Origin: Chloroflexota bacterium
Lineage (GTDB): Bacteria; Chloroflexota; Anaerolineae; UBA4142
Assembly: GCA_023381515.1 (NCBI GenBank)
Contig: JAMCQI010000030.1
Location: forward strand, 1 to 64,000
Direction: 5' to 3'
DNA: 64,000 nt
Shown here: positions 16,778-63,295 of the stretch, one piece after another
How positions within the stretch are numbered: the first letter of the stretch is position 1
Layout of the letters: each line of letters starts with the position of its first letter
Translations under genes and position numbers: made by a program
Notes under the pieces: generated by a model
Seen by the model: only the letters and a program-made list of their open reading frames with translations
Database searches by the model: none
What the model was told of the DNA's origin: nothing

Positions 16778-17531
16778 GATAACTTCCTCCAGATTCCAGC
16801 TCCACGCCCGCGTAATGGGTAAACACATCGTCGAGCGTTGCGCCATTTCCTCCGATAGACGCTTTGAGTTCCGCGGGCGTCCCCAGCGCCGCGACTTTGC
16901 CCAAGTGCATGACGGCGAGACGGCCGCAGAGCTTGTCGGCCTCGTCCATATAGTGCGTCGTTAGAAGGATCGTCGTCCCATACTCGCGCCGGAGTTGGTC
17001 TATGTGCTCCCACACAGCTTGGCGCGCCACCGGATCCAGCCCGACGGTGGGCTCGTCGAGAAAGAGCACGCGCGGTCGGTGCAACATGGATTGGGCGATT
17101 TCCAGTCTGCGGATCATTCCCCCGGAATAGTCACGAACCAGTTTATCCGCCACTTCGGCCAGCCCCATAAAGGCCAGTGCGTCGCGGACGCTCTCTTCGC
17201 GCTGGGCCCGGGGCAAATCGTAGAGTTTGGCAAAGATGAGAAGGTTCTCGTAGCCCGTCAAAGTACCGTCGGCCGAGAGGAGCTGGGGAACGTAGCCAAT
17301 GAGGCGCCGCACTTGGGCAGCATGGTGGGCAATGTCAAATCCGGCGATCCGGGCATTCCCCGAGGTGGGGGGAAGCAGGGTCGTCAACATTTTCAGCGTC
17401 GTCGTTTTGCCCGCGCCATTCGGTCCCACCAATCCAAAGACTTCACATTCTTCGACGGAGATCGTGAGCGCGTCCACGGCGGTGAACGAACCAAAGCGGC
17501 GAGTGAGCGATTGTGTTTCCAGTATTGGCAT
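16734..17531 (-). CDS. ABC exporter ATPase (DrrA-like)
   Basis: This 265-residue ATP-binding subunit has Walker A GPNGAGKTTTL near residue 37, Q-loop in GYVPQLLSAD, signature YSGGMIRRLEIAQ, Walker B RVLFLDEPTVGLDP, and H-loop LLTTHYMDEADKL. The C-terminal extension LDDVFTHYAGVELE is typical of DrrA-like subunits. The signature motif is YSGGM rather than LSGGQ, a common DrrA variant. The start at 17531 (MPILETQSLTRRFGSFTAVD) is set by homology. The permease gene overlaps its 3' end, and a winged-helix gene lies 444 bases upstream on the same strand and may regulate the exporter. Confidence 0.9.
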   Translation of the reverse strand: MPILETQSLTRRFGSFTAVDALTISVEECEVFGLVGPNGAGKTTTLKMLTTLLPPTSGNARIAGFDIAHHAAQVRRLIGYVPQLLSADGTLTGYENLLIFAKLYDLPRAQREESVRDALAFMGLAEVADKLVRDYSGGMIRRLEIAQSMLHRPRVLFLDEPTVGLDPVARQAVWEHIDQLRREYGTTILLTTHYMDEADKLCGRLAVMHLGKVAALGTPAELKASIGGNGATLDDVFTHYAGVELESGGSYRETTRTRRVARRLG

Positions 17532-23675: not shown

Positions 23676-25670
23676 TTAGACGACGATGCGGACAGTCGTT
23701 CCCTGGCCCGGGGATGAGTAGACGCTCCACTGCGCGCCGATGAGGGCGGCGCGTTCCTGCATGCCGAGCAAGCCAAAGTGCCCTTTAGCAGCCAGCGCAT
23801 GGGGCGTCGCAGGAACGCTAAAGCCGCGCCCATCGTCGCGGATCGTGAGGACGAGGCAAGAGTCCTTCCACTGTAATTGAATACTTGCGGTCTGCGCTGC
23901 GGCGTGGCGGGCGACGTTCATCAGCGCTTCCTGAACGAGTCGGTAGAGATTGACCGCGATCTCGGGGGAAAGTGCGCGCAACGAAGCATCGGCCGCAAGG
24001 TCGAGCGTCACAGCCACCGCCGACTGCGATGACCAATCGCCGGCCAGAACGCGCAGTGCGGCTCCTAGCCCCATCGTATCCAACATCGGAGGACGCAGTT
24101 CCGAGCACACCTGACGGAGCGCCGCCAAGAGAGTTCGCACCTCGGTGCGCATCTCGCCGAGCGCCGGGGCGATTTGCCCGTCTCCATTCGCGAGCAGGAG
24201 ACCCAACTGCATATTCAATCCGACCAGGTCCTGGAGGGGGCCGTCGTGCAGGTCGCGCGCGAGCCGCGCCCGTTCCTCCTCCCGCGAGCGCATGAGTTGG
24301 CGCTGCGCCTGAGTGAGGGTCTCCCGGCTGGCGCGGATTTCATCGAGTTGCCCGCGCAGCATTTCAACGAGGAGCACGTTGCTCAAGCTCACTTCCGCCT
24401 GGCGCGCGAGCGTGTTCAGAATGCGTTGGTCGGAGGCCGTGAAACCCTCTCCATCACGGTGACCGCGGACGATCCAGACAGCGCGGGGCTCTCCTTGAAA
24501 GGCAAGGGGAAATCGCAGGTGAGGAGTGGTCGCGGGCAATGAACAGGCTTTCCCGTTGCCCATCAAGAGTTGGCCCGGTTCGAGCTGCATCAGCCGAGGC
24601 ACCTGGCGGGTCAAGACGTGGGTGTAACTGGCACGCTCGATGCTGCGGGCAAGCGCATCGCTGATCGTTTCCACGACGCCCGGATAGTCATACCAGCCGC
24701 CGTAGAAAAGCCGGTCGACCCACTTTTGGACGCGCCCGCGCGTCCAGTCAAAGCCCAAGCCGACAAAAAGTGTCATTCCCGCCACGACAAAAAGCTCTGC
24801 CAGCCAATCCCCGGGCAAGAGCGAATAGATCAAAAGCATTGGACCCGTATAGAGCAGGAGAATCCCAAAGGAGAGGATCGCATAAACGAGCGTGCGATTG
24901 AGCACGCGATCGATGTCGAACAGGTGCTGCCGTACAATTGCGAGGACATAGCTGAGCGGGGCGATAATGATGAACGGCCCCACCATCCAGTCGGGCATCC
25001 GGTCCGCCGAGCCGGCGATCGTAGGAACGAGGTAGAAGAGAAAAAGCGGGGTCGCGGACCCCAGGCTGCCCAAGACGACCAGGCGGAGCCGCCGCCGTCC
25101 GTCAGGTGTCGCGTGACGCAAATAGGCGTGGACCAGGATCGAAATCGCGCCGACCACCTCGACGGCGTTGTAGAAAAAGGTCAGACGCAGGCCGAGGTCG
25201 GTCGAGGACAACTGGCAGGCGAGAGCCGCCAGCATGAGGCCATACGCAGGGACCAGCACCCCGCGTCGCCGGTTCGGGCTGCCCAAGGAGACCGGGAATG
25301 TGAGATGGTAATGAACAAGCAACGGGCCAGAAACGTGAAAACCGACGCTGCTCACGACTCCCATCCAGTAGGGGCGCGCCGCAAGATCTGGAAAGGGCAG
25401 AAAGAACAGCAGACCGACTGCGACCGATTGGACCAACAAGAAAAACAGCCGCCCCTCAAATTGCTGAAAGCGCCGCCAAATTAGGAATGTCCCCAAGCCG
25501 GAAAATGTCAGTGCAACGACAAGGGCGCTAAGCAGGTGGGGTAGATACAAGAGCCTCGGAGTGCTGAGCTGAAAATAGAGGAGATATCCCGCGAGCAGCG
25601 GGACCATGAGGGCAACCAAGTAAAAAAGAAAGAGGACAAGCCGGTTCGATCCCCTGGCGTCGAATCCCAT
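23676..25670 (-). CDS. Membrane sensor histidine kinase, NarX/DegS type
   Basis: This 664-residue kinase has about eight membrane segments in residues 10-310, a degenerate GAF-like region at about 330-440 (FTASDQRILNTLARQAEVSL), and a HisKA_3 dimerisation helix with phosphoacceptor His475 in ARLARDLHDGPLQDLVG. The HATPase_c domain follows, with N-box LVQEALMNVARHA, G1 TIRDDGRGF, and GHFGLLGMQERA. The His-Asp-x-P pattern is typical of NarL-partnered kinases. Its ATG directly follows the stop codon of the NarL-type regulator (TAG then ATG), so translation is coupled. The ligand is unknown; the many membrane spans suggest sensing of a membrane state or hydrophobic cue. Confidence 0.92.
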   Translation of the reverse strand: MGFDARGSNRLVLFLFYLVALMVPLLAGYLLYFQLSTPRLLYLPHLLSALVVALTFSGLGTFLIWRRFQQFEGRLFFLLVQSVAVGLLFFLPFPDLAARPYWMGVVSSVGFHVSGPLLVHYHLTFPVSLGSPNRRRGVLVPAYGLMLAALACQLSSTDLGLRLTFFYNAVEVVGAISILVHAYLRHATPDGRRRLRLVVLGSLGSATPLFLFYLVPTIAGSADRMPDWMVGPFIIIAPLSYVLAIVRQHLFDIDRVLNRTLVYAILSFGILLLYTGPMLLIYSLLPGDWLAELFVVAGMTLFVGLGFDWTRGRVQKWVDRLFYGGWYDYPGVVETISDALARSIERASYTHVLTRQVPRLMQLEPGQLLMGNGKACSLPATTPHLRFPLAFQGEPRAVWIVRGHRDGEGFTASDQRILNTLARQAEVSLSNVLLVEMLRGQLDEIRASRETLTQAQRQLMRSREEERARLARDLHDGPLQDLVGLNMQLGLLLANGDGQIAPALGEMRTEVRTLLAALRQVCSELRPPMLDTMGLGAALRVLAGDWSSQSAVAVTLDLAADASLRALSPEIAVNLYRLVQEALMNVARHAAAQTASIQLQWKDSCLVLTIRDDGRGFSVPATPHALAAKGHFGLLGMQERAALIGAQWSVYSSPGQGTTVRIVV

Positions 25671-26333
25671 CTAGGTCTCACCTGCCGCAGCAACCTGGAC
25701 CAGCCCGTGGCGTATCGCGAACAGGGCGGCCTCGGTTCGAGACGTGACGCCCAGCTTGCTGTAGATCGTGCTGACGTGATTCTGGACGGTCCGCGTGGTG
25801 AGGACGAGGCTCTGGGCGATCGCCGCATTATCAAGGCCCTGCGCGAGGAGACACAGAACCTCCATCTCCCGAGGGGTGAGCGGGACGGCCGGAGGTTCGG
25901 CGGGTGTCCCGCCGTGTCGGGAAAGGCGGCGAACGACGTGGCCGGCGATGCCCGGGCTGAGCCAAATCTCGCCGCGCGCAACGGCGCGGACGGCGCTGGC
26001 GACCGTCTCGAGCGCGTCGTCTTTGAGTATGTAGCCGGTCGCGCCGCTGTCCAGCAGGCCAAACAGCGTTTCCTGATCATTGTGGACGGTGAGAATGAGA
26101 ATGGGGGTTGACGTACCTAGAGCTCGCAGCTCGCGGGTGACCTGCACCCCGCTCTTGTCAGGTAGGTTCACGTCGAGGATCAGCACATCGGGGTGATGCG
26201 CTTCGACCAAACGCAGTGCATCCGCGCCGCACGTGCCTTCGGCGAGGACCGCGATGTCACCTGCCGCGGTGAGGATCGTTCGCATGCCCGCGCGGACGAT
26301 GGGATGATCATCGACGATGACGACGGTCGCCAT
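25671..26333 (-). CDS. NarL/FixJ-family response regulator
   Basis: This 220-residue DNA-binding regulator has a receiver domain with acidic pair VVIVDDHPIVRAGM, phosphoacceptor Asp54 in VLILDVNLPD, and conserved Thr and Lys in ILTVH and ILKDD. A LuxR-type helix-turn-helix follows at about 150-205: LTPREMEVLCLLAQGLDNAA and TTRTVQNHVSTIYSKLGV. It is the first gene of the operon and cognate to the kinase whose start codon abuts its stop. A good promoter at 26480-26508 drives both. Targets may include the divergent peptide-importer operon, but that is only positional inference. Confidence 0.93.
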   Translation of the reverse strand: MATVVIVDDHPIVRAGMRTILTAAGDIAVLAEGTCGADALRLVEAHHPDVLILDVNLPDKSGVQVTRELRALGTSTPILILTVHNDQETLFGLLDSGATGYILKDDALETVASAVRAVARGEIWLSPGIAGHVVRRLSRHGGTPAEPPAVPLTPREMEVLCLLAQGLDNAAIAQSLVLTTRTVQNHVSTIYSKLGVTSRTEAALFAIRHGLVQVAAAGET

Positions 26334-26541: not shown

Positions 26542-26569
26542 TTGACATTTGTCTCTTTGGTAATATAAT
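26542..26569 (+). promoter_or_regulatory. Promoter of the permuted-SBP operon
   Basis: A perfect TTGACA and perfect TATAAT are separated by 16 bases, about 140 bases before the ATG at 26712. This is a near-consensus sigma-70 promoter implying strong expression. Confidence 0.75.
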
Positions 26570-26711: not shown

Positions 26712-28490
26712 ATGAAAGCGTCGAATGCCAGGTTCATCGTCTTCCTAGCGCTCGCCTCCCTGCTCGTCGTTTTGGGAGCGTGTGCCCCAGCCCCCGCCGC
26801 CCCGCCTCCGGCCGCCACGAGCGCCCCCGCCGCCACGAGCGCCCCGGCCGCGACTACGGCACCAACCAGTGCGCCGACAGCCGCCGCCACCAAGGCAGCC
26901 ACGACGGCGCCCACCACGGCCTCAACCGCCAGTCTCTTGAAATTCTCAGCCCCGAACTGCAGCTACACGGACAAATCCAAGAACGTCGCCGAGCTGAAAT
27001 CTATCGAGGCGACTGACCCCAACACGGTCGTGTTTACGCTTTGCCACCCCGACCCCGATTTCCTGTACAAGGTTACGTTCGGCGCCTTTGGCATCGAGCC
27101 CAAGGCGTACCTGGACAAGACCGCAGGGGACACGACCAAAGTGGGCGACAAGCCCATCGGCACTGGACCTTACGTCGTGTCTGAATGGGTGCGCGGTGAT
27201 CATATCACCTTCACGGCCAATCCCAACTACTGGGGGCCCGCACCCAAGACCAAGACGGTCATTCTCAAGTGGTCAACCGATGCCTCGCAGCGCCTCATCG
27301 AACTTCAGTCCGGCCAAGCCGACGGCATGGACAATGTCGCTACCGAAGATATGGCAGCGGTTCAGAAGAACCCGAGCCTGAAGCTCATGCCGCGCCAACC
27401 CGAGACCATTGTTTACCTCGGCATGAACAACAAGTTCAAGCCCTTTGACAACGAAAAGGTGCGCCAGGCGATCGCCATGGCGATCGACAAAAAGCGCCTT
27501 GTCACCAACTTTTATCCGACCGGTTCGACGGTCGCGGACCAATTCTTGACTCCCGATATCAAGCCGGGCTACACGGACAATTTCAAGGCGACGGCGTATG
27601 ACCCAACCGCGGCCAAAAAGCTGCTCGCGGATGCCGGGTACCCCAACGGCTTTGATGTCAAGCTCTCCTACCGCCCCACCGTGCGTCAATATCTACCCTC
27701 GCCCGATAAGGTGGCCCAAGACCTCCAGGCTCAGTTGAAGCAAATCGGCGTCAACGTCACAGTGAACCCGATGGAATCGGGCGCCTTCCTCGACCAGACC
27801 GAATCCGGGAACACACCTTTCTTCCTTCTCGGCTGGATCGACGATTACGCGGGCGCGACCGATATCATCGACCCGAATATCGGTTCGGGGTCGAAGCAAT
27901 TCGGCAATCCCTATGCCGATCTCAACGCCGAGATTTCCGCGGCCGGCTCTGTGGTCGATGCGACGGTTCGCCAACAGCACTATGACAAGGTGAATCAGTT
28001 GTTGCAGCAGCTGGTGCCCGAAGTCCCGTTGGTCCATGGAACTTCGGCCTGTGCCTATGTGGCCAAAGACACCGGCGACCAGTGCAGCCCATTCAGCGAC
28101 GAATACTTCCAGTACATCGGCAATGGGACGAACCAGGTCGTCTGGGTGCAGAACGCAGAGCCCCTGAGCCTGTGGTGCGCCGATGAAGAAGACGGCGAGA
28201 CCTTCCGCGCCTGCATCCAGGTCTACGATGCGCTCTACAACTTTGAGCAGAACGGCGTCAAGCCGGTTCCCGCTCTGGCGACGAGCTACCAGGCCAGTCC
28301 GGACGCGACCGTGTGGACCTTCCATCTGCGACAAGGCGTCAAGTTCAGCGACGGAAGCGCTTTCACAGCCAACGACGTCGTCGCCAACTATGATGCCTGG
28401 TGGGATGCCAAGAACCCGGATCACAAGGGTCGCACCGGTAACTGGACGTACTTTACCAGTTTCTTTGGCGCTCAACTCAACAACCAGTAG
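26712..28490 (+). CDS. Circularly permuted peptide-type solute-binding lipoprotein
   Basis: This 592-residue lipoprotein (lipobox LGAC, Cys24) has a 50-residue Ala/Pro/Thr linker and a family 5 (SBP_bac_5, DppA/OppA) fold in permuted order. After the linker the mature part opens with what is normally the middle of the protein: NVAELKSIEATDPNTVVFTL (residues 91-110), PIGTGPYVVSEWVRGDHITF and PNYWG. It runs to the usual C-terminal end at FSDEYFQYI (about 461-469). It then continues at about 474 with the normal N-terminal part: VVWVQNAEPLSLWC, CIQVYDALYNFEQNGVKPVP, ALATSYQASPDATVWTFHLR and QGVKFSDGSAFTANDVVANY, ending at 592. Joining the end to the beginning restores a complete canonical sequence. 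It is followed by two permease genes and two hydrolase-like genes, with a hairpin after the stop. Ligand unknown; peptide-like is likely. Confidence 0.88.
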   Translation: MKASNARFIVFLALASLLVVLGACAPAPAAPPPAATSAPAATSAPAATTAPTSAPTAAATKAATTAPTTASTASLLKFSAPNCSYTDKSKNVAELKSIEATDPNTVVFTLCHPDPDFLYKVTFGAFGIEPKAYLDKTAGDTTKVGDKPIGTGPYVVSEWVRGDHITFTANPNYWGPAPKTKTVILKWSTDASQRLIELQSGQADGMDNVATEDMAAVQKNPSLKLMPRQPETIVYLGMNNKFKPFDNEKVRQAIAMAIDKKRLVTNFYPTGSTVADQFLTPDIKPGYTDNFKATAYDPTAAKKLLADAGYPNGFDVKLSYRPTVRQYLPSPDKVAQDLQAQLKQIGVNVTVNPMESGAFLDQTESGNTPFFLLGWIDDYAGATDIIDPNIGSGSKQFGNPYADLNAEISAAGSVVDATVRQQHYDKVNQLLQQLVPEVPLVHGTSACAYVAKDTGDQCSPFSDEYFQYIGNGTNQVVWVQNAEPLSLWCADEEDGETFRACIQVYDALYNFEQNGVKPVPALATSYQASPDATVWTFHLRQGVKFSDGSAFTANDVVANYDAWWDAKNPDHKGRTGNWTYFTSFFGAQLNNQ

Positions 28491-28579: not shown

Positions 28580-29656
28580 ATGCTACAATTCCTGATTCGT
28601 AGAATTATCCTGTTGATTCCCGTGCTGCTCGGGATCCTCTTTGTGACCTTCGCCATGAGCCGCATGATCCCCGGCGACGCGTGCGCCGTCATGCTCGGCG
28701 AAAGATACACGCCCGAAAAGTGCACCGCGTTCCGGCAGCAGTATGGCTTGAACGATAATATCGTCGTCCAGTTTGGGCGCTACTTGCTGACGCTGGGTGA
28801 GGGCAACCTGGGCGATTCCATTCGCGATGGCCGGCCGGTCACGACGATCATCTCAGAACGATTGCCGATGACGGCTGAGCTGACCTTTGGCGCGATGCTC
28901 TTTGCGGCGACCTTTGGCATTCTCCTTGGCACCATCTCTGCCCTTCGCCACAACAGCGGCGTGGATGTCGCGACGATGGTGGGCGCCAATGTCGGCGTCT
29001 CGATGCCCGTCTTTTGGCTCGGGTTGATGCTGGCGTTCCTGTTCGCCGTCCTCCTCAAAGGGACGCCGCTCTGGCTTCCCCCTTCTTCACGCTTGACGGC
29101 CGGCGTCAGCATGCCGCCGCTTGACCAGGCCTGGCACCTGCAGAATCTGGCGCCCCTGCCGCATTTCTTCTTGGATCTGGTTTCCAATTCAGTCGTTCTG
29201 CACAGCGTTCTCATCGGCGAGTTCGGCGTCACCTGGGATGCGATCCAACACCTGATCCTTCCTTCGGCTGCTCTCGGCACGATTCCGCTCGCCATCATCG
29301 CGCGTCTGACGCGGTCCAGTCTTCTCGACGTACTCGGGCAGGATTACGTTCGGACTGCACGGGCCAAGGGCTTGCGCGAGCGTATGATCTTGATGCGTCA
29401 CGCGATGCGCAACGCGCTCATCCCCATCATCACCATTATTGGATTGCAGGTGGGTCTCTTGCTGTCGGGAGCCGTCCTGACGGAGACAGTCTTTTTGCTC
29501 CCTGGTGTCGGAACGCAGTTGGTGACTTCCATCTTTGCCCGGGATTATCCGGTCATCCAAGGATTTGTCGTGGTGATAGCCTTGCTATTCGCCTCTGTCA
29601 ATATACTCGTGGACCTTTCGTACTCATTCCTGGACCCGCGCGTCCGCGCGAACTAG
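28580..29656 (+). CDS. Peptide ABC importer permease, DppB type
   Basis: This 358-residue inner-membrane permease of the BPD_transp_1 family has about six spans. The N-terminus LQFLIRRIILLIPVLLGILF is characteristic of DppB/OppB, and the EAA loop reads YVRTARAKGLRERMILMRHA followed by MRNALIPIITIIGLQ. The ending SYSFLDPRVR is typical. The N-terminal periplasmic loop contains PGDACAVMLGERYTPEKC. The start at 28580 (MLQFL) is set by homology; the ribosome site is weak, consistent with lower expression than the SBP. It partners with the next gene. No ATPase gene is found in the operon. Confidence 0.92.
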   Translation: MLQFLIRRIILLIPVLLGILFVTFAMSRMIPGDACAVMLGERYTPEKCTAFRQQYGLNDNIVVQFGRYLLTLGEGNLGDSIRDGRPVTTIISERLPMTAELTFGAMLFAATFGILLGTISALRHNSGVDVATMVGANVGVSMPVFWLGLMLAFLFAVLLKGTPLWLPPSSRLTAGVSMPPLDQAWHLQNLAPLPHFFLDLVSNSVVLHSVLIGEFGVTWDAIQHLILPSAALGTIPLAIIARLTRSSLLDVLGQDYVRTARAKGLRERMILMRHAMRNALIPIITIIGLQVGLLLSGAVLTETVFLLPGVGTQLVTSIFARDYPVIQGFVVVIALLFASVNILVDLSYSFLDPRVRAN

Positions 29657-29668
29657 GTAGCTGATACG

Positions 29669-30607
29669 ATGACGGCTAGATCCGATTCGCTCGCCACCTC
29701 CTCGCAAGCCAGCCCGATCCCTGTCATACAGCGCTCGCCTCTCTCCCAGATGATTCGCAGGTTGACCCGTCATCGCTCTTTCCAGGCTGGCGTCGTTCTG
29801 CTCGCGATCATCGTATTCGTGGCAATCTTTGCGGGTGTCCTGTCCCCTTACGATCCCACCTTGCCGCTGGACAACGTGACGCCCCGGGAATCGCCTTGTA
29901 TTCACCTGCTCGGTTGTACGGAAAAGTCGGGTGACCACATCTTTGGGACGGACAGCAACAGCCGCGACGAGTTTTCGCGTATCCTCTTTGGGGCGCGGTT
30001 GTCGTTGGAGATCGGCTTTCTCACAACCGGTGTCGCGATCATCATCGGCTCCATCCTGGGCGCGATCTCCGGTTACGCGGAAAGCTGGACCGACACTCTC
30101 ATCATGCGCGCCATGGACATACTCCTGGCCTTCCCGAGCCTGCTGCTGGCAATTGCCATTGTCGCCATTCTGGGTCCGGGATTAATGAATGCCCTGATCG
30201 CGATCGCCATTGTCAACATTCCCATCTATGCACGCCTCTTTCGCGCGAGCGTTCTCTCCGTCAAAGACCTGGAATACGTCACCGCCGCGCGCGCGGTAGG
30301 GGCTTCCGCCCGCCGGATATTGAGCCGGGAGATCTTTCCGAACGCGTTGACGCCTACTCTTGTCCAGGGAACGCTGGGCATCGCGACGACCATCCTTGAC
30401 GCCGCCGGTCTCTCCTTCCTCGGGCTAGGCGCCCAGCCGCCCACACCGGAATGGGGCTCGATGCTCAGCGCCGAGCGAAATGCCATTTTCACTGCACCGT
30501 TCTTGGTTTTTGTTCCCGGCATCGCGATCATGGTGACCGTTCTTTCTTTCAATCTCATCGGCGATGCCCTGCGCGACGCGCTCGATCCGCGTTTGCGCAT
30601 CGGTTAG
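29669..30607 (+). CDS. Peptide ABC importer permease, DppC type
   Basis: This 312-residue permease is the partner of the DppB-type subunit 12 bases upstream. The N-terminal OppC_N segment (SPLSQMIRRLTRHRSFQAGV) is followed by about five spans. The EAA loop reads DLEYVTAARAVGASARRILS then REIFPNALTPTLVQ, and LSFLGLGAQPPTPEWGSML with GDALRDALDPRLR closes the protein, all typical of DppC/OppC. Like the rest of the importer it needs an ATPase pair (DppD/F type) that is not encoded nearby. Confidence 0.93.
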   Translation: MTARSDSLATSSQASPIPVIQRSPLSQMIRRLTRHRSFQAGVVLLAIIVFVAIFAGVLSPYDPTLPLDNVTPRESPCIHLLGCTEKSGDHIFGTDSNSRDEFSRILFGARLSLEIGFLTTGVAIIIGSILGAISGYAESWTDTLIMRAMDILLAFPSLLLAIAIVAILGPGLMNALIAIAIVNIPIYARLFRASVLSVKDLEYVTAARAVGASARRILSREIFPNALTPTLVQGTLGIATTILDAAGLSFLGLGAQPPTPEWGSMLSAERNAIFTAPFLVFVPGIAIMVTVLSFNLIGDALRDALDPRLRIG

Positions 30608-50230: not shown

Positions 50231-52009
50231 ATGCGCCCCGCGTGTAGAAACAGCCGGAATGCACTTGTATTCCTCACGGTCGTCCTTTTCGCCTTCGTCG
50301 CAGTCGCGTGCGCACCGGCAGCGCCCCCCGCTGCGACTGCTCCCCCGGCTACCGCAGCCCCGGCAGCCACCCAAGCATCTTCTGCGAGCTCCACTTCAAA
50401 GACCGCCCCAACCGGCGCCGCCGGTACTCCCAAGAGCGGCGGCACCATCACGATGGTCGTCTGGCAAGAGCCGGAGAACCTCAACGTCGAACTGGTCTCG
50501 CAAACCGTCGCATTCCACATCGCCGACCTTTTCGAGGAAGGTTTGCTCAACGTCAACGAAAAGGGGCAATGGTTCCCCGTGCTTGCGACCGAGGTTCCCA
50601 CCACGGCGAACGGCGGAGTCAGCGCCGACGGCAAGACGATTACGTATCATCTCCGCAAAGGCGTCAAATGGCAGGATGGCACCGATTTTACCTGCGAGGA
50701 CATCAAGTTCACGCAGCAAGTCATCACGACACCCAATATCGGCGCTCTCGATGCCTCGGCATTCGCCAATCTGACCGTGACGTGTCCCGATCCGAACACG
50801 GCGGTGCTTACCTTTAAAGATTTCAAGGCGGATTGGATCCGGCTCTTTAACGGAAACGGAATGGCCTACGTTTTCCCCAAGGACGCCGGCAAGCCCGAGG
50901 ATATGAAGACTTGGGCCTACAATCGCAAGCCCATCGGCACAGGCCCATTCAAGGTGGACGAGTTCGTCACCGGCGATCACATCACCCTTTCCAAGAATCC
51001 CAATTATTGGCAGCCGGGCAAACCGTATCTCGACAAGATCATCGTCCGCGTCGTTCCTTCCTCCGAAGTGGGGATGCAGATGATGAAAAGCGGCGAAGCC
51101 GATGTGATGTGGAACAATACGGAGGCGGACCTTCCGGCCCTCGCCCAAATGTCGAACGTCAAGATCTTTGACGCCCCTCAGGCCGGCGGCGAACGCTTGA
51201 TCCTCAACCTGACCGAGAATGCCGATCCCTCTGACAACAAGACCCCGCACCCCATCCTCGGCGACGTCAAGGTGCGAGAGGCGATTGCGCTGGGCATTGA
51301 CAAGCAGACGATCATCGACAAACTGCTGAACGGCAAGGCCCTGCCGGGGTCGGGCGAGTTGAACGTGGACCCCTACAACTGCGGCATCAAGCCGGTTCCG
51401 TACGACCCTGCCAAAGCCAAGCAACTGCTCGACGCCGCGGGCTGGGTCCCGGGCTCGGATGGGATCCGCGTCAAGAATGGGACCCGCCTGAGTTTAAAGT
51501 ACCAGACGACGACGGGGAACAAGCTGCGTGAGGACAGCCAGGTGCTCATCGTCGAGAACATGAAAGCCATCGGCGTCGAGTTCAGGATCGAGAACCAGCC
51601 TTCCTCGGTCTTGATCGGTTCGTGGTCCGCCGGCAGCCCTCGCAAGCACGGCAATTTCGACATCATCATGTACACGACGAACGCGAGCATCGACCCGGGC
51701 AGCCAGATGTACAATTACTTTGACAGCAAGTCCATTCCCTCCCCCACGAATCAGGGTGGGATCAATTACAGCCGCTGGAACGACCCGCAGACCGACCAGC
51801 TGATCGAAAAAGCGGGCACCATTCCTGACTGGAACCAGCGCAAGGACTTGTACTGCCAGGCTGCGCAACGGATCGTGGACGGCTACAGCCACATCTATCT
51901 CTACCAGCGCTTTAATCTCCACAGTTTCAACACCCGCGTGCAGGGCTGGATTCCGACGCCCTGGCTTGGCCCCCTGTGGAACGCGGCGGACATCTGGGTC
52001 ACCAAGTAG
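50231..52009 (+). CDS. Peptide-type solute-binding lipoprotein, canonical order
   Basis: This 592-residue family 5 SBP has lipobox VAC, an Ala/Pro/Thr linker to about residue 68, then the usual order: GGTITMVVWQEPENLNVELV, FPVLATEVPT, TITYHLRKGVKWQDGTDF, PDPNTAVLTFKDF, PIGTGPFKVDEFVTGDHITL, NPNYW, VREAIALGIDKQTI and the C-terminal FNTRVQGWIPTPW. It binds di- or oligopeptides or related compounds and delivers them to the DppBC-type permeases that follow. It is a useful reference for the permuted protein at 26712, to which it is homologous segment by segment but in different order. Confidence 0.93.
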   Translation: MRPACRNSRNALVFLTVVLFAFVAVACAPAAPPAATAPPATAAPAATQASSASSTSKTAPTGAAGTPKSGGTITMVVWQEPENLNVELVSQTVAFHIADLFEEGLLNVNEKGQWFPVLATEVPTTANGGVSADGKTITYHLRKGVKWQDGTDFTCEDIKFTQQVITTPNIGALDASAFANLTVTCPDPNTAVLTFKDFKADWIRLFNGNGMAYVFPKDAGKPEDMKTWAYNRKPIGTGPFKVDEFVTGDHITLSKNPNYWQPGKPYLDKIIVRVVPSSEVGMQMMKSGEADVMWNNTEADLPALAQMSNVKIFDAPQAGGERLILNLTENADPSDNKTPHPILGDVKVREAIALGIDKQTIIDKLLNGKALPGSGELNVDPYNCGIKPVPYDPAKAKQLLDAAGWVPGSDGIRVKNGTRLSLKYQTTTGNKLREDSQVLIVENMKAIGVEFRIENQPSSVLIGSWSAGSPRKHGNFDIIMYTTNASIDPGSQMYNYFDSKSIPSPTNQGGINYSRWNDPQTDQLIEKAGTIPDWNQRKDLYCQAAQRIVDGYSHIYLYQRFNLHSFNTRVQGWIPTPWLGPLWNAADIWVTK

Positions 52010-52092: not shown

Positions 52093-53100
52093 ATGACGCG
52101 ATATATCATCCGTCGTCTGCTTGAATCCATCCCGCTGCTCTTTGTGATCAGCGTCATCGTGTTTGCGCTGATCCAGATCATGCCCAACAATCCGCTTTCA
52201 GAGCTTCAAAACAATCCCAACATCTCGCCCGCAGACTTGCTTCGGCTGGAAAATGAATACGGGTTGAACGATCCGGTCCCGCTCAAGTACACCAAATGGC
52301 TGGGGCAGACCTTGACCGGCAATTGGGGCGACTCTTTCGTCACGCATCGCCCCGTGCTGACCGAGATTTCCGAACGGTTTCCCAACACGTTGATCCTCTC
52401 AGGGCTAGCCTTTCTGGTCGCGCTCGTCGTCGCCATTCCGGTCGGCATGATTTCCGCCGTCCGCCAGTATTCGCTCTTCGATCATGTCGTCACGACGATC
52501 GCCTTTATGGGCCAATCGATTCCCATTTTTTGGTTCGGGCTCGTTCTGATTATTGTTTTCTCGGTGAACATTCAGAATCCCTGGGCCGGCACCCCGCTCT
52601 TTCCTCATCCCCCGCCGCTGCCCCTTTTTCCGGGCGGCGGGATGACGACCCTCGGCAGCTATCCGCCCGAACCCCTCGTCGATCGGATCTGGCACCTCGT
52701 TCTGCCGGTGACCATGCTCGCCATTTTCCAACTCGCCGCGACGGTTCGCTATATGCGCGCGGGCATGTTGGATGTGCTGCAGATGGACTATATCCGCACC
52801 GCGACGGCCAAAGGACTGAGATCCCGCGCCGTCATCCTCCGCCATGCCTTTAAGAACGCCGCGATCCCGGTCGTGACCATCATTGCCCTCCAAATCCCCG
52901 GGCTTTTCAACGGCGCGTTATTCACGGAAACCATTTTCTCGTGGCCCGGCATGGGCCGCCTTTTTTTCGACAGCGCCGAGCGCGGGGATTATCCGGTTCT
53001 CATGGGTATCCTGATGATCAGTGCCGCCCTGATAATTTTCTTCAACCTCGTCGCCGACGTCGCCTACGCGGTTCTCGATCCACGCATCCATTACAATTAG
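52093..53100 (+). CDS. Peptide ABC importer permease, DppB type
   Basis: This 335-residue permease has N-terminus YIIRRLLESIPLLFVISVIV, loop YGLNDPVPLKYTKWLGQTLT, EAA loop YIRTATAKGLRSRAVILRHA then FKNAAIPVVTIIALQ, GALFTETIFSWPGMGRLFFD and ending AYAVLDPRIHYN. All are DppB/OppB signatures. The start at 52093 follows the hairpin. The gene for its partner starts directly after its stop (TAG then ATG). Confidence 0.94.
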   Translation: MTRYIIRRLLESIPLLFVISVIVFALIQIMPNNPLSELQNNPNISPADLLRLENEYGLNDPVPLKYTKWLGQTLTGNWGDSFVTHRPVLTEISERFPNTLILSGLAFLVALVVAIPVGMISAVRQYSLFDHVVTTIAFMGQSIPIFWFGLVLIIVFSVNIQNPWAGTPLFPHPPPLPLFPGGGMTTLGSYPPEPLVDRIWHLVLPVTMLAIFQLAATVRYMRAGMLDVLQMDYIRTATAKGLRSRAVILRHAFKNAAIPVVTIIALQIPGLFNGALFTETIFSWPGMGRLFFDSAERGDYPVLMGILMISAALIIFFNLVADVAYAVLDPRIHYN

Positions 53101-54030
53101 ATGACCCAAGCCAACATCGCGCTGGATTCCTCGGGCGCCATCTCGACTCTAGGTCGGAAGCAAGAGACGATGCTCTCGCTGACCTGGCGCCATTTTCGCA
53201 AGCACCGGCTCGCCTTGATGGGTATGGCCGTCCTAACCGTGCTCGTGCTCGGCGTCATTTTGGTGCCCACCCTCACGAATTATGATCCCGGCACCACGCA
53301 CATTCTGGACAAGTACGAGGCGCCTTCACTCGCCCATCCGATGGGGACGGATGGTCTCGGCCGCGACATGCTGCTTCGCTCGATGGACGGCGGGCGCATC
53401 TCGTTGATGATCGCCTTTCTCGCCATGCTCCTCGCCATCGGCATCGGGACGCTCGTCGGCGCGATCGCCGGTTTCTATGGCGGGCTGGCCGACAATCTCC
53501 TCATGCGCCTTGCGGACATGATGCTCACCATGCCCACGCTGTTCGTCGCCATCCTGCTCACCCAATTGCTGCGCGCGGGAGTGGTCCCCTTTCTCAGCGC
53601 GGGCATTACGCCCATCATCCTGGTCATCGCGGCCACCGCGTGGATGCCCGTGGCCCGTCTCGTCCGCGCGTCGTTTCTATCCCTCAAGGAAAAAGAGTTC
53701 GTAGAAGCGGCGCGCGCGGGGGGCGCGAAGAATGTCCGCATTATGGTGCGGCACATCCTCCCGAATGCGACGAGCCCGATCATTGTCGCCGCAACCCTGA
53801 GCGTGGGCGCGGCCATCATTACCGAATCGGGCTTGAGCTACCTGGGCTTTGGGGTGCAGCCTCCTATTCCCACCTGGGGCAACATGCTGCAGAACGCGCA
53901 GGCCGAAATGGATTATGCTCCCTGGACGGCCATCTTCCCCGGTATCTTGATCTTTATCACGGTGATCTCCGTTAACTATATCGGCGACGGCTTGCGCGAC
54001 GCCCTCGACCCGCATCATATCGCCCGTTGA
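53101..54030 (+). CDS. Peptide ABC importer permease, DppC type
   Basis: This 309-residue permease has SLTWRHFRKHRLALMGMAVL near the N-terminus, HPMGTDGLGRDMLLRSMDGG, and EAA loop KEFVEAARAGGAKNVRIMVR then HILPNATSPIIVAATLS. It ends LSYLGFGVQPPIPTWGNMLQ and GDGLRDALDPHHI. It couples with the DppB-type subunit and is followed after 19 bases by an M20 amidohydrolase. As in the other operons, no ATPase gene is present. Confidence 0.94.
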   Translation: MTQANIALDSSGAISTLGRKQETMLSLTWRHFRKHRLALMGMAVLTVLVLGVILVPTLTNYDPGTTHILDKYEAPSLAHPMGTDGLGRDMLLRSMDGGRISLMIAFLAMLLAIGIGTLVGAIAGFYGGLADNLLMRLADMMLTMPTLFVAILLTQLLRAGVVPFLSAGITPIILVIAATAWMPVARLVRASFLSLKEKEFVEAARAGGAKNVRIMVRHILPNATSPIIVAATLSVGAAIITESGLSYLGFGVQPPIPTWGNMLQNAQAEMDYAPWTAIFPGILIFITVISVNYIGDGLRDALDPHHIAR

Positions 54031-63176: not shown

Positions 63177-63226
63177 CGAAACGGTCGGTTACGACCGACC
63201 TCAAATAGCACGGTCGGTTACGCCAC
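63156..63226. repeat. Three direct repeats of ACGGTCGG-YTAYG
   Basis: Copies begin at 63156, 63181 and 63210 (ACGGTCGGCTATGACCG, ACGGTCGGTTACGACCG, ACGGTCGGTTACGCC). The first two contain CGGTC/GACCG dyads. They lie around and upstream of the candidate promoter of the propeller gene and look like multiple binding sites for one regulator. Confidence 0.6.
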
Positions 63227-63295
63227 TCGCTCCACCCGGTCAAAAGCGTCCAGAAGAGGGACGGGGGTTCTTCGCACCCGTTCATAACGCCGATT

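Follow-up and report, generated by a model that had tools for sequence, protein, structure and literature searches.

The product of the gene at positions 26712-28490 of the 64,000-nucleotide stretch of DNA analysed here (the window) is very probably the tethered subunit with which a Dpp/Opp-type importer binds peptides, and its chain would be a naturally circularly permuted version of the family 5 fold. We named the segments of this fold N (about DppA residues 1-117), E (about 118-274) and T (the rest), the canonical order being N-E-T. The protein in question carries them in the order E-T-N, after a lipoprotein signal and a flexible tether. The features referred to below are as follows.

26542..26569, + strand: putative promoter-like site of sigma-70 type, TTGACA-16-TATAAT (consensus match, 12/12 consensus bases)
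26712..28490, + strand: family 5 substrate-binding lipoprotein of 592 aa, read as circularly permuted (Pfam, phmmer against the PDB, order classification)
26712..26942, + strand: signal peptide (lipobox-like Cys24) and tether rich in Ala, Pro and Thr, residues 1 to ~77 (sequence)
26943..27440, + strand: segment E, residues 78-243, equivalent to about DppA 118-274 (alignment to solved structures)
27441..28127, + strand: segment T, residues 244-472, equivalent to DppA ~275 to the end, containing R325 and D378 (alignment)
28119..28133, + strand: junction at which the old C- and N-termini are fused, residues about 470-474 (alignment to solved structures and relatives)
28128..28487, + strand: segment N, residues 473-592, corresponding to DppA 1 to ~117 (alignment)
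28580..29656, + strand: next gene, DppB-type permease (BPD_transp_1)
29669..30607, + strand: DppC-type permease (BPD_transp_1, OppC_N)
50231..52009, + strand: comparator SBP_bac_5 protein of canonical order (Pfam, order classification)

The gene is one uninterrupted reading frame, open throughout its 592 codons, as the initial annotation of this DNA had described it; the sequence motifs cited there lie at the positions given, and the comparator that it took to be normally ordered is canonical. The promoter that it had called strong matches the consensus fully and is retained as a promoter-like site only. SBP_bac_5 (PF00496) is the sole Pfam family matched by the protein, in two stretches (307 bits against a cut-off of 32.4), the larger of which places residues 80-392 on model positions 61-363. 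With phmmer, residues 473-582 aligned with positions 7-123 and residues 94-461 with positions 130-502 of HbpA (3TPA; whole-sequence E 6e-56), and residues 495-583 aligned with 22-117 and 96-445 with 125-480 of DppA (1DPE; whole-sequence E 2e-54). The two blocks therefore come in reversed order against both structures, which bears out the swapped segment order claimed earlier. A Pfam search for partial hits in reverse model order had been proposed as a check, and this pattern was found in nine permuted copies from eight other genomes, where the match runs from model position 56/62 to 364/367 and then, downstream, from 1/2 to 52/57. In an alignment of relatives (A1), A23 and C24 of the lipobox are nearly invariant. 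On the strength of these alignments, we read the protein as a probable natural circular permutant of family 5.

An E-T-N order could also be produced artificially, by the fusion of neighbouring binding-protein genes or by a chimeric contig, but we give this explanation a negligible probability, as independent genomes have already refuted it. The same order was found in all 120 of the best 120 of 2111 homologues of the window protein, which came from several sources. Among the best 80 of 577 confirmed genome loci, 61 were permuted (60 E-T-N and L053, described below), 18 were canonical and one was truncated; a truncated locus (L059) and one split over two ORFs (L060) were left out as complete examples. 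Permuted loci occur in the isolates Leptolinea tardivitalis, Leptolinea sp. HRD-7, Bellilinea caldifistulae and Devosia sp. FKR38. Purifying selection acts on the relatives of the window gene, with dN/dS values of 0.016-0.30 overall in nine pairs of relatives (a set that does not include the window gene) and of at most 0.38 by segment in relatives' pairs, one value not being computable. The earlier statement that the gene is neither a frameshift nor fused neighbours agrees with the E-T-N order of hundreds of homologues.

The permuted E-T-N form, which we call CP1, is mainly a Chloroflexota form that occurs also in a few Acidimicrobiia MAGs and in Devosia, with hundreds of relatives. To survey genomes, we used a joint profile (A2; 34 sequences, 171 positions) that spans the fused T-N joint and that does not separate E-T-N from T-N-E proteins; a match was counted as full-length if it started at position 3 or earlier and ended at position 164 or later. 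Of 400 genomes sampled from the Leptolinea phylum, at least 56 contained a full-length match (up to eight candidates scored per genome). The phylum of an Acidimicrobiia MAG contributed 4 such genomes among 198, and the Devosia class contributed 1 among 190. No full-length match was found at E <= 1e-33 in 539 genomes of four control groups (146, 143, 149 and 101 genomes), of which 45 (1, 0, 23 and 21) gave matches to the N part that began at position 36 or later, as expected of canonical proteins. The Gammaproteobacteria control yielded no A2 match of any kind at E <= 1e-33 and hence shows little alone; its centre genome had eight A2 matches at E <= 1e-15, all starting at position 43 or later. 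Two more full-length matches came from MAGs labelled Pleurocapsa (L019) and Bacteroidetes (L016), labels that could be mistaken. Transfer out of Chloroflexota is suggested by the permuted genes of Devosia and of Acidimicrobiia-labelled MAGs, which are those at L033 and L034 and at L008, L010, L029, L030 and L054. Database names for these proteins, where given, are those of ordinary substrate-binding proteins, so the permuted order is easily overlooked.

With regard to function, R355 of DppA, which we take to contact the dipeptide end, and D408 of DppA align with R325 and D378 of the window protein. R325 is kept in 314 of 321 E-T-N rows and D378 in 316 of 321, and both equivalents are present in all 18 re-permuted (T-N-E) rows. 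In DppA, D408 forms a salt bridge with the amino end of the peptide (PMC3295651). The two permease genes listed above come directly after the permuted gene, and further downstream lie genes for an AstE/AspA-type deacylase, an M28 peptidase and a DAO-type oxidase. Where a row includes 1.1 kb or more of downstream sequence (overlapping loci unmerged), a dppB/C-like gene follows in 72 of 85 cases for E-T-N and in all six for T-N-E, the latter representing five genes; in 13 of the 85 E-T-N rows, neither a permease nor an ATPase relative lies within reach. The operon is best read as encoding a peptide importer. No close DppD/DppF-type ATPase gene was found in the 64 kb window, the best match being a 32%-identical stretch at 16866-17507, so the ATPases must be encoded elsewhere if the importer works. 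Such ATPase genes are present behind L053 and L033, among others. The second dpp-like operon of the window, near 50-54 kb, also lacks DppD/F-type ATPase genes, and the two permease pairs perhaps share ATPases encoded elsewhere. Each of the dppBC-like pairs (28580-30607 and 52093-54030) stands behind an SBP_bac_5 gene. Divergent from the permuted gene, at 23676-26333, are genes for a histidine kinase and a LuxR-type response regulator, a pair that possibly regulates its operon. The window also holds a match to the c-di-GMP-II-GAG riboswitch at 63203-63288 (- strand; 43.9 bits, cut-off 40).

In the structure that we propose, the old C-terminus would run directly into the old N-terminal strand, and the new ends would lie in the stretch equivalent to about DppA 118-124, which would thus be where the lipid anchor and flexible tether are attached. 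Both old chain ends presumably lie in one lobe of the fold. The permuted chain would fold as an ordinary two-lobed binder, bind short peptides by their charged ends and pass them to DppBC. It is improbable, in our estimate, that segment N instead completes the fold of a second chain in an obligate, domain-swapped dimer. Nothing points directly to such a swap, although the tandem permuted genes at L011, L128 and L129 would be compatible with it. The T-N joint, however, is short in aligned relatives, as for a strand that returns to its own sheet, and binding proteins are normally monomers.

In one branch, the CP1 permutation was followed by another. L053 (1134-2927; Thermoflexales MAG) encodes in one frame, behind a signal and tether, a chain of the order T-N-E (residues equivalent to 244-589, then 71-244), with relatives of dppB, dppC, dppD and dppF behind the gene. 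Among the best 120 of 6428 matches to L053 were 17 T-N-E proteins from several sources, one of them on an 88 kb Anaerolineae contig, and 103 E-T-N proteins with identities of up to 80%. We take the CP1 break to be in domain II and the second one to be at the hinge. The new joint in L053 reads FLEVPPATATDTKYEAPNCDYGG, while its E-T-N kin end in FLNPPPATP or FLNAPP and have heads such as TATDTMYAAKDCSYGG; the joint thus still seems to contain the tail of one copy followed by a second copy's head linker. A tandem fusion that was then trimmed anew would be expected to leave such a scar (GLNNDVKP / EAVRQAI). Judging by segment order and joint, one branch of CP1 (L053 and the 17 proteins) is permuted again to T-N-E with a head-to-tail scar.

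A second set of T-N-E genes, encoding proteins of ~700 aa, was found in four genomes (L122:1145-3271, L123:1205-3316, L124:1256-3295 and L132:1495-3591), and these chains are broken almost exactly where L053 is. L122 shares 68% identity over the fold with its nearest canonical protein and 32% with its nearest E-T-N protein, and the four proteins are placed inside the canonical rows of a tree of 86 rows (support 99, quick search). By identity and tree position, this SBP_bac_5 subfamily is one that was permuted independently of CP1. In a survey with L122, 14 of 251 genomes matched and the T-N-E order was present in two, the query's own and G255, the latter with a canonical relative ~6 kb away on the same contig; the remaining genomes of this type came from the Leptolinea-phylum survey. 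Asn replaces R325 in all four proteins, so that their ligand probably differs. The fold seems, from these orders, to tolerate relocation of its ends more than once.

The number of origins was assessed with trees. The first comprised 86 rows, selected from 437 classified ones by thinning on identity and on filled columns (51 canonical, 27 E-T-N and 8 T-N-E; LG+C20 mixture, quick search). In it, 26 E-T-N and four T-N-E rows formed one clade (SH-aLRT 100), so the permuted form of the window falls in a single clade, a point that the initial annotation had proposed to settle by homologues and a tree. The 27th E-T-N row, L055, stood beside canonical L121 (99). As an independent origin of the E-T-N order, L055 was not upheld, since an AU test does not reject one origin (p 0.33). 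For a follow-up, 43 further permuted proteins were collected; after thinning, seven rows of the L055 branch and 17 of the main clade were kept in a tree of 43 rows. Here the L055 branch is a grade between the main CP1 clade and canonical proteins, P0244 still standing beside the latter (95), and one origin was again not rejected (p 0.35). We therefore count CP1 as one origin, while two would also be compatible with these trees. L118-L120, on a long branch (1.1-1.2 changes per column), fall within the E-T-N clade in both the FastTree and the mixture-model tree, so no extra permutation event is claimed for them. For the CP1-derived T-N-E group, a tree of 18 T-N-E, 58 of the 103 E-T-N and three outgroup rows was built. 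Two origins, as in a quick tree, were discarded because the log-likelihood is 47 higher when the group is held together; a single origin fits these sequences best.

Some relatives carry further binding domains before the permuted fold: SBP_bac_3 in L012, L041, L055, P0240 and P0244, two Peripla_BP_6 stretches in L013, and SBP_bac_3 together with Peripla_BP_6 in P0261. The chains with such domains, of amino-acid-binding type, strung in front for which we give locus coordinates are:

L013: 3544-7587
L012: 5161-7536
L041: 462-2927
L055: 5002-7488

Other N-terminal additions, without a Pfam match, precede the permuted fold in L061 (5713-7530) and P0185. In the set of proteins listed around L055, at least 150 aa precede the fold in 24 of 43 permuted and in 0 of 77 canonical proteins, and all 24 match PF00497 (SBP_bac_3). 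Elsewhere, fronts of this length were rarer: they were seen in 6 of 224 E-T-N proteins in the homologue lists of the window protein and L053, in 5 of 97 E-T-N and 6 of 92 canonical proteins among genome loci, and in 0 of 23 T-N-E proteins. Front domains are mainly a trait of the L055 branch, whose rows are related. By a rough lipobox pattern test and with overlapping loci unmerged, canonical Chloroflexota tethers are also long, with a median of ~42 residues (44 of 62 with a recognised lipobox), against a median of 6 residues in other named groups (7 of 23). We suggest that, given a long tether, the place at which the chain starts may become nearly neutral.

With regard to the origin of CP1, we propose an in-frame fusion of tandem copies followed by trimming, a course to which the scar in the T-N-E descendants points; in the case of the window gene it is inferred, the direct sequence support being found only in a twice-permuted relative. 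It is less likely, but a real possibility, that fission and fusion made the order, in which case an upstream SBP_bac_3 gene may have donated the signal and N-terminus in the L055 branch. The long PF00497-bearing fronts of that branch would be consistent with such a donation, as would the fact that no fused tandem intermediate was found among the sequences classified. However, the tail plus head linker at the re-closed site of the T-N-E proteins is predicted by duplication, which we prefer. Tandem pairs of permuted binding-protein genes, of the kind seen at L011, L128 and L129, are raw material for permutation by duplication.

Like DppA and HbpA (GbpA) of family 5 (SBP_bac_5, cluster C), to which it is homologous over three segments, the window protein has dppBC-type neighbours and the R355/D408 equivalents; unlike them, it has the order E-T-N, its anchor attached elsewhere and its old ends fused. 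A permuted binding protein of another class is already known. TpMglB-2 (Tp0684) is a circularly permuted glucose-binding protein of solved structure, for which the names Type Ic and Cluster Bc have been proposed and whose topology goes with tethered proteins according to its authors (PMC4990184). TpMglB-2 is likewise a naturally permuted, tethered ABC binding protein conserved in a bacterial group, but it is a type I, cluster B protein with a sugar ligand, whereas the present case concerns family 5 and was both permuted again and repeated independently. The tail-to-head joint is as the model of permutation by duplication predicts, similar to saposin/swaposin and DNA methyltransferases (PMC3320104); our case differs from these in its two successive rounds in one lineage and in that no tandem intermediate is among the sequences classified. 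Among the open-access titles that our literature searches yielded, none describes a family 5 binding protein with a permuted chain, or binding proteins that were permuted repeatedly.

Many biosensors are built on binding proteins, and suitable sites for permutation and insertion are looked for by design or with libraries; in this fold, nature has used two sites. One fold offers a widespread permutation, a second one whose joint is still readable and an independent case with unpermuted kin up to 68% identical, so that the mechanism and cost of circular permutation can be tested on living intermediates. Tentatively, and with chances that we put at slightly under even, the family 5 binding proteins of Chloroflexota may be a lineage of serial natural circular permutation, in which CP1 became widespread, one of its branches was re-permuted with a visible scar, and a further subfamily independently acquired a break at almost the same position. 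Long tethers would make the start of the chain nearly neutral, and the moved N-terminus may let SBP_bac_3 and Peripla_BP_6 domains be added in front, so that a single importer would be served by multi-ligand receptors.
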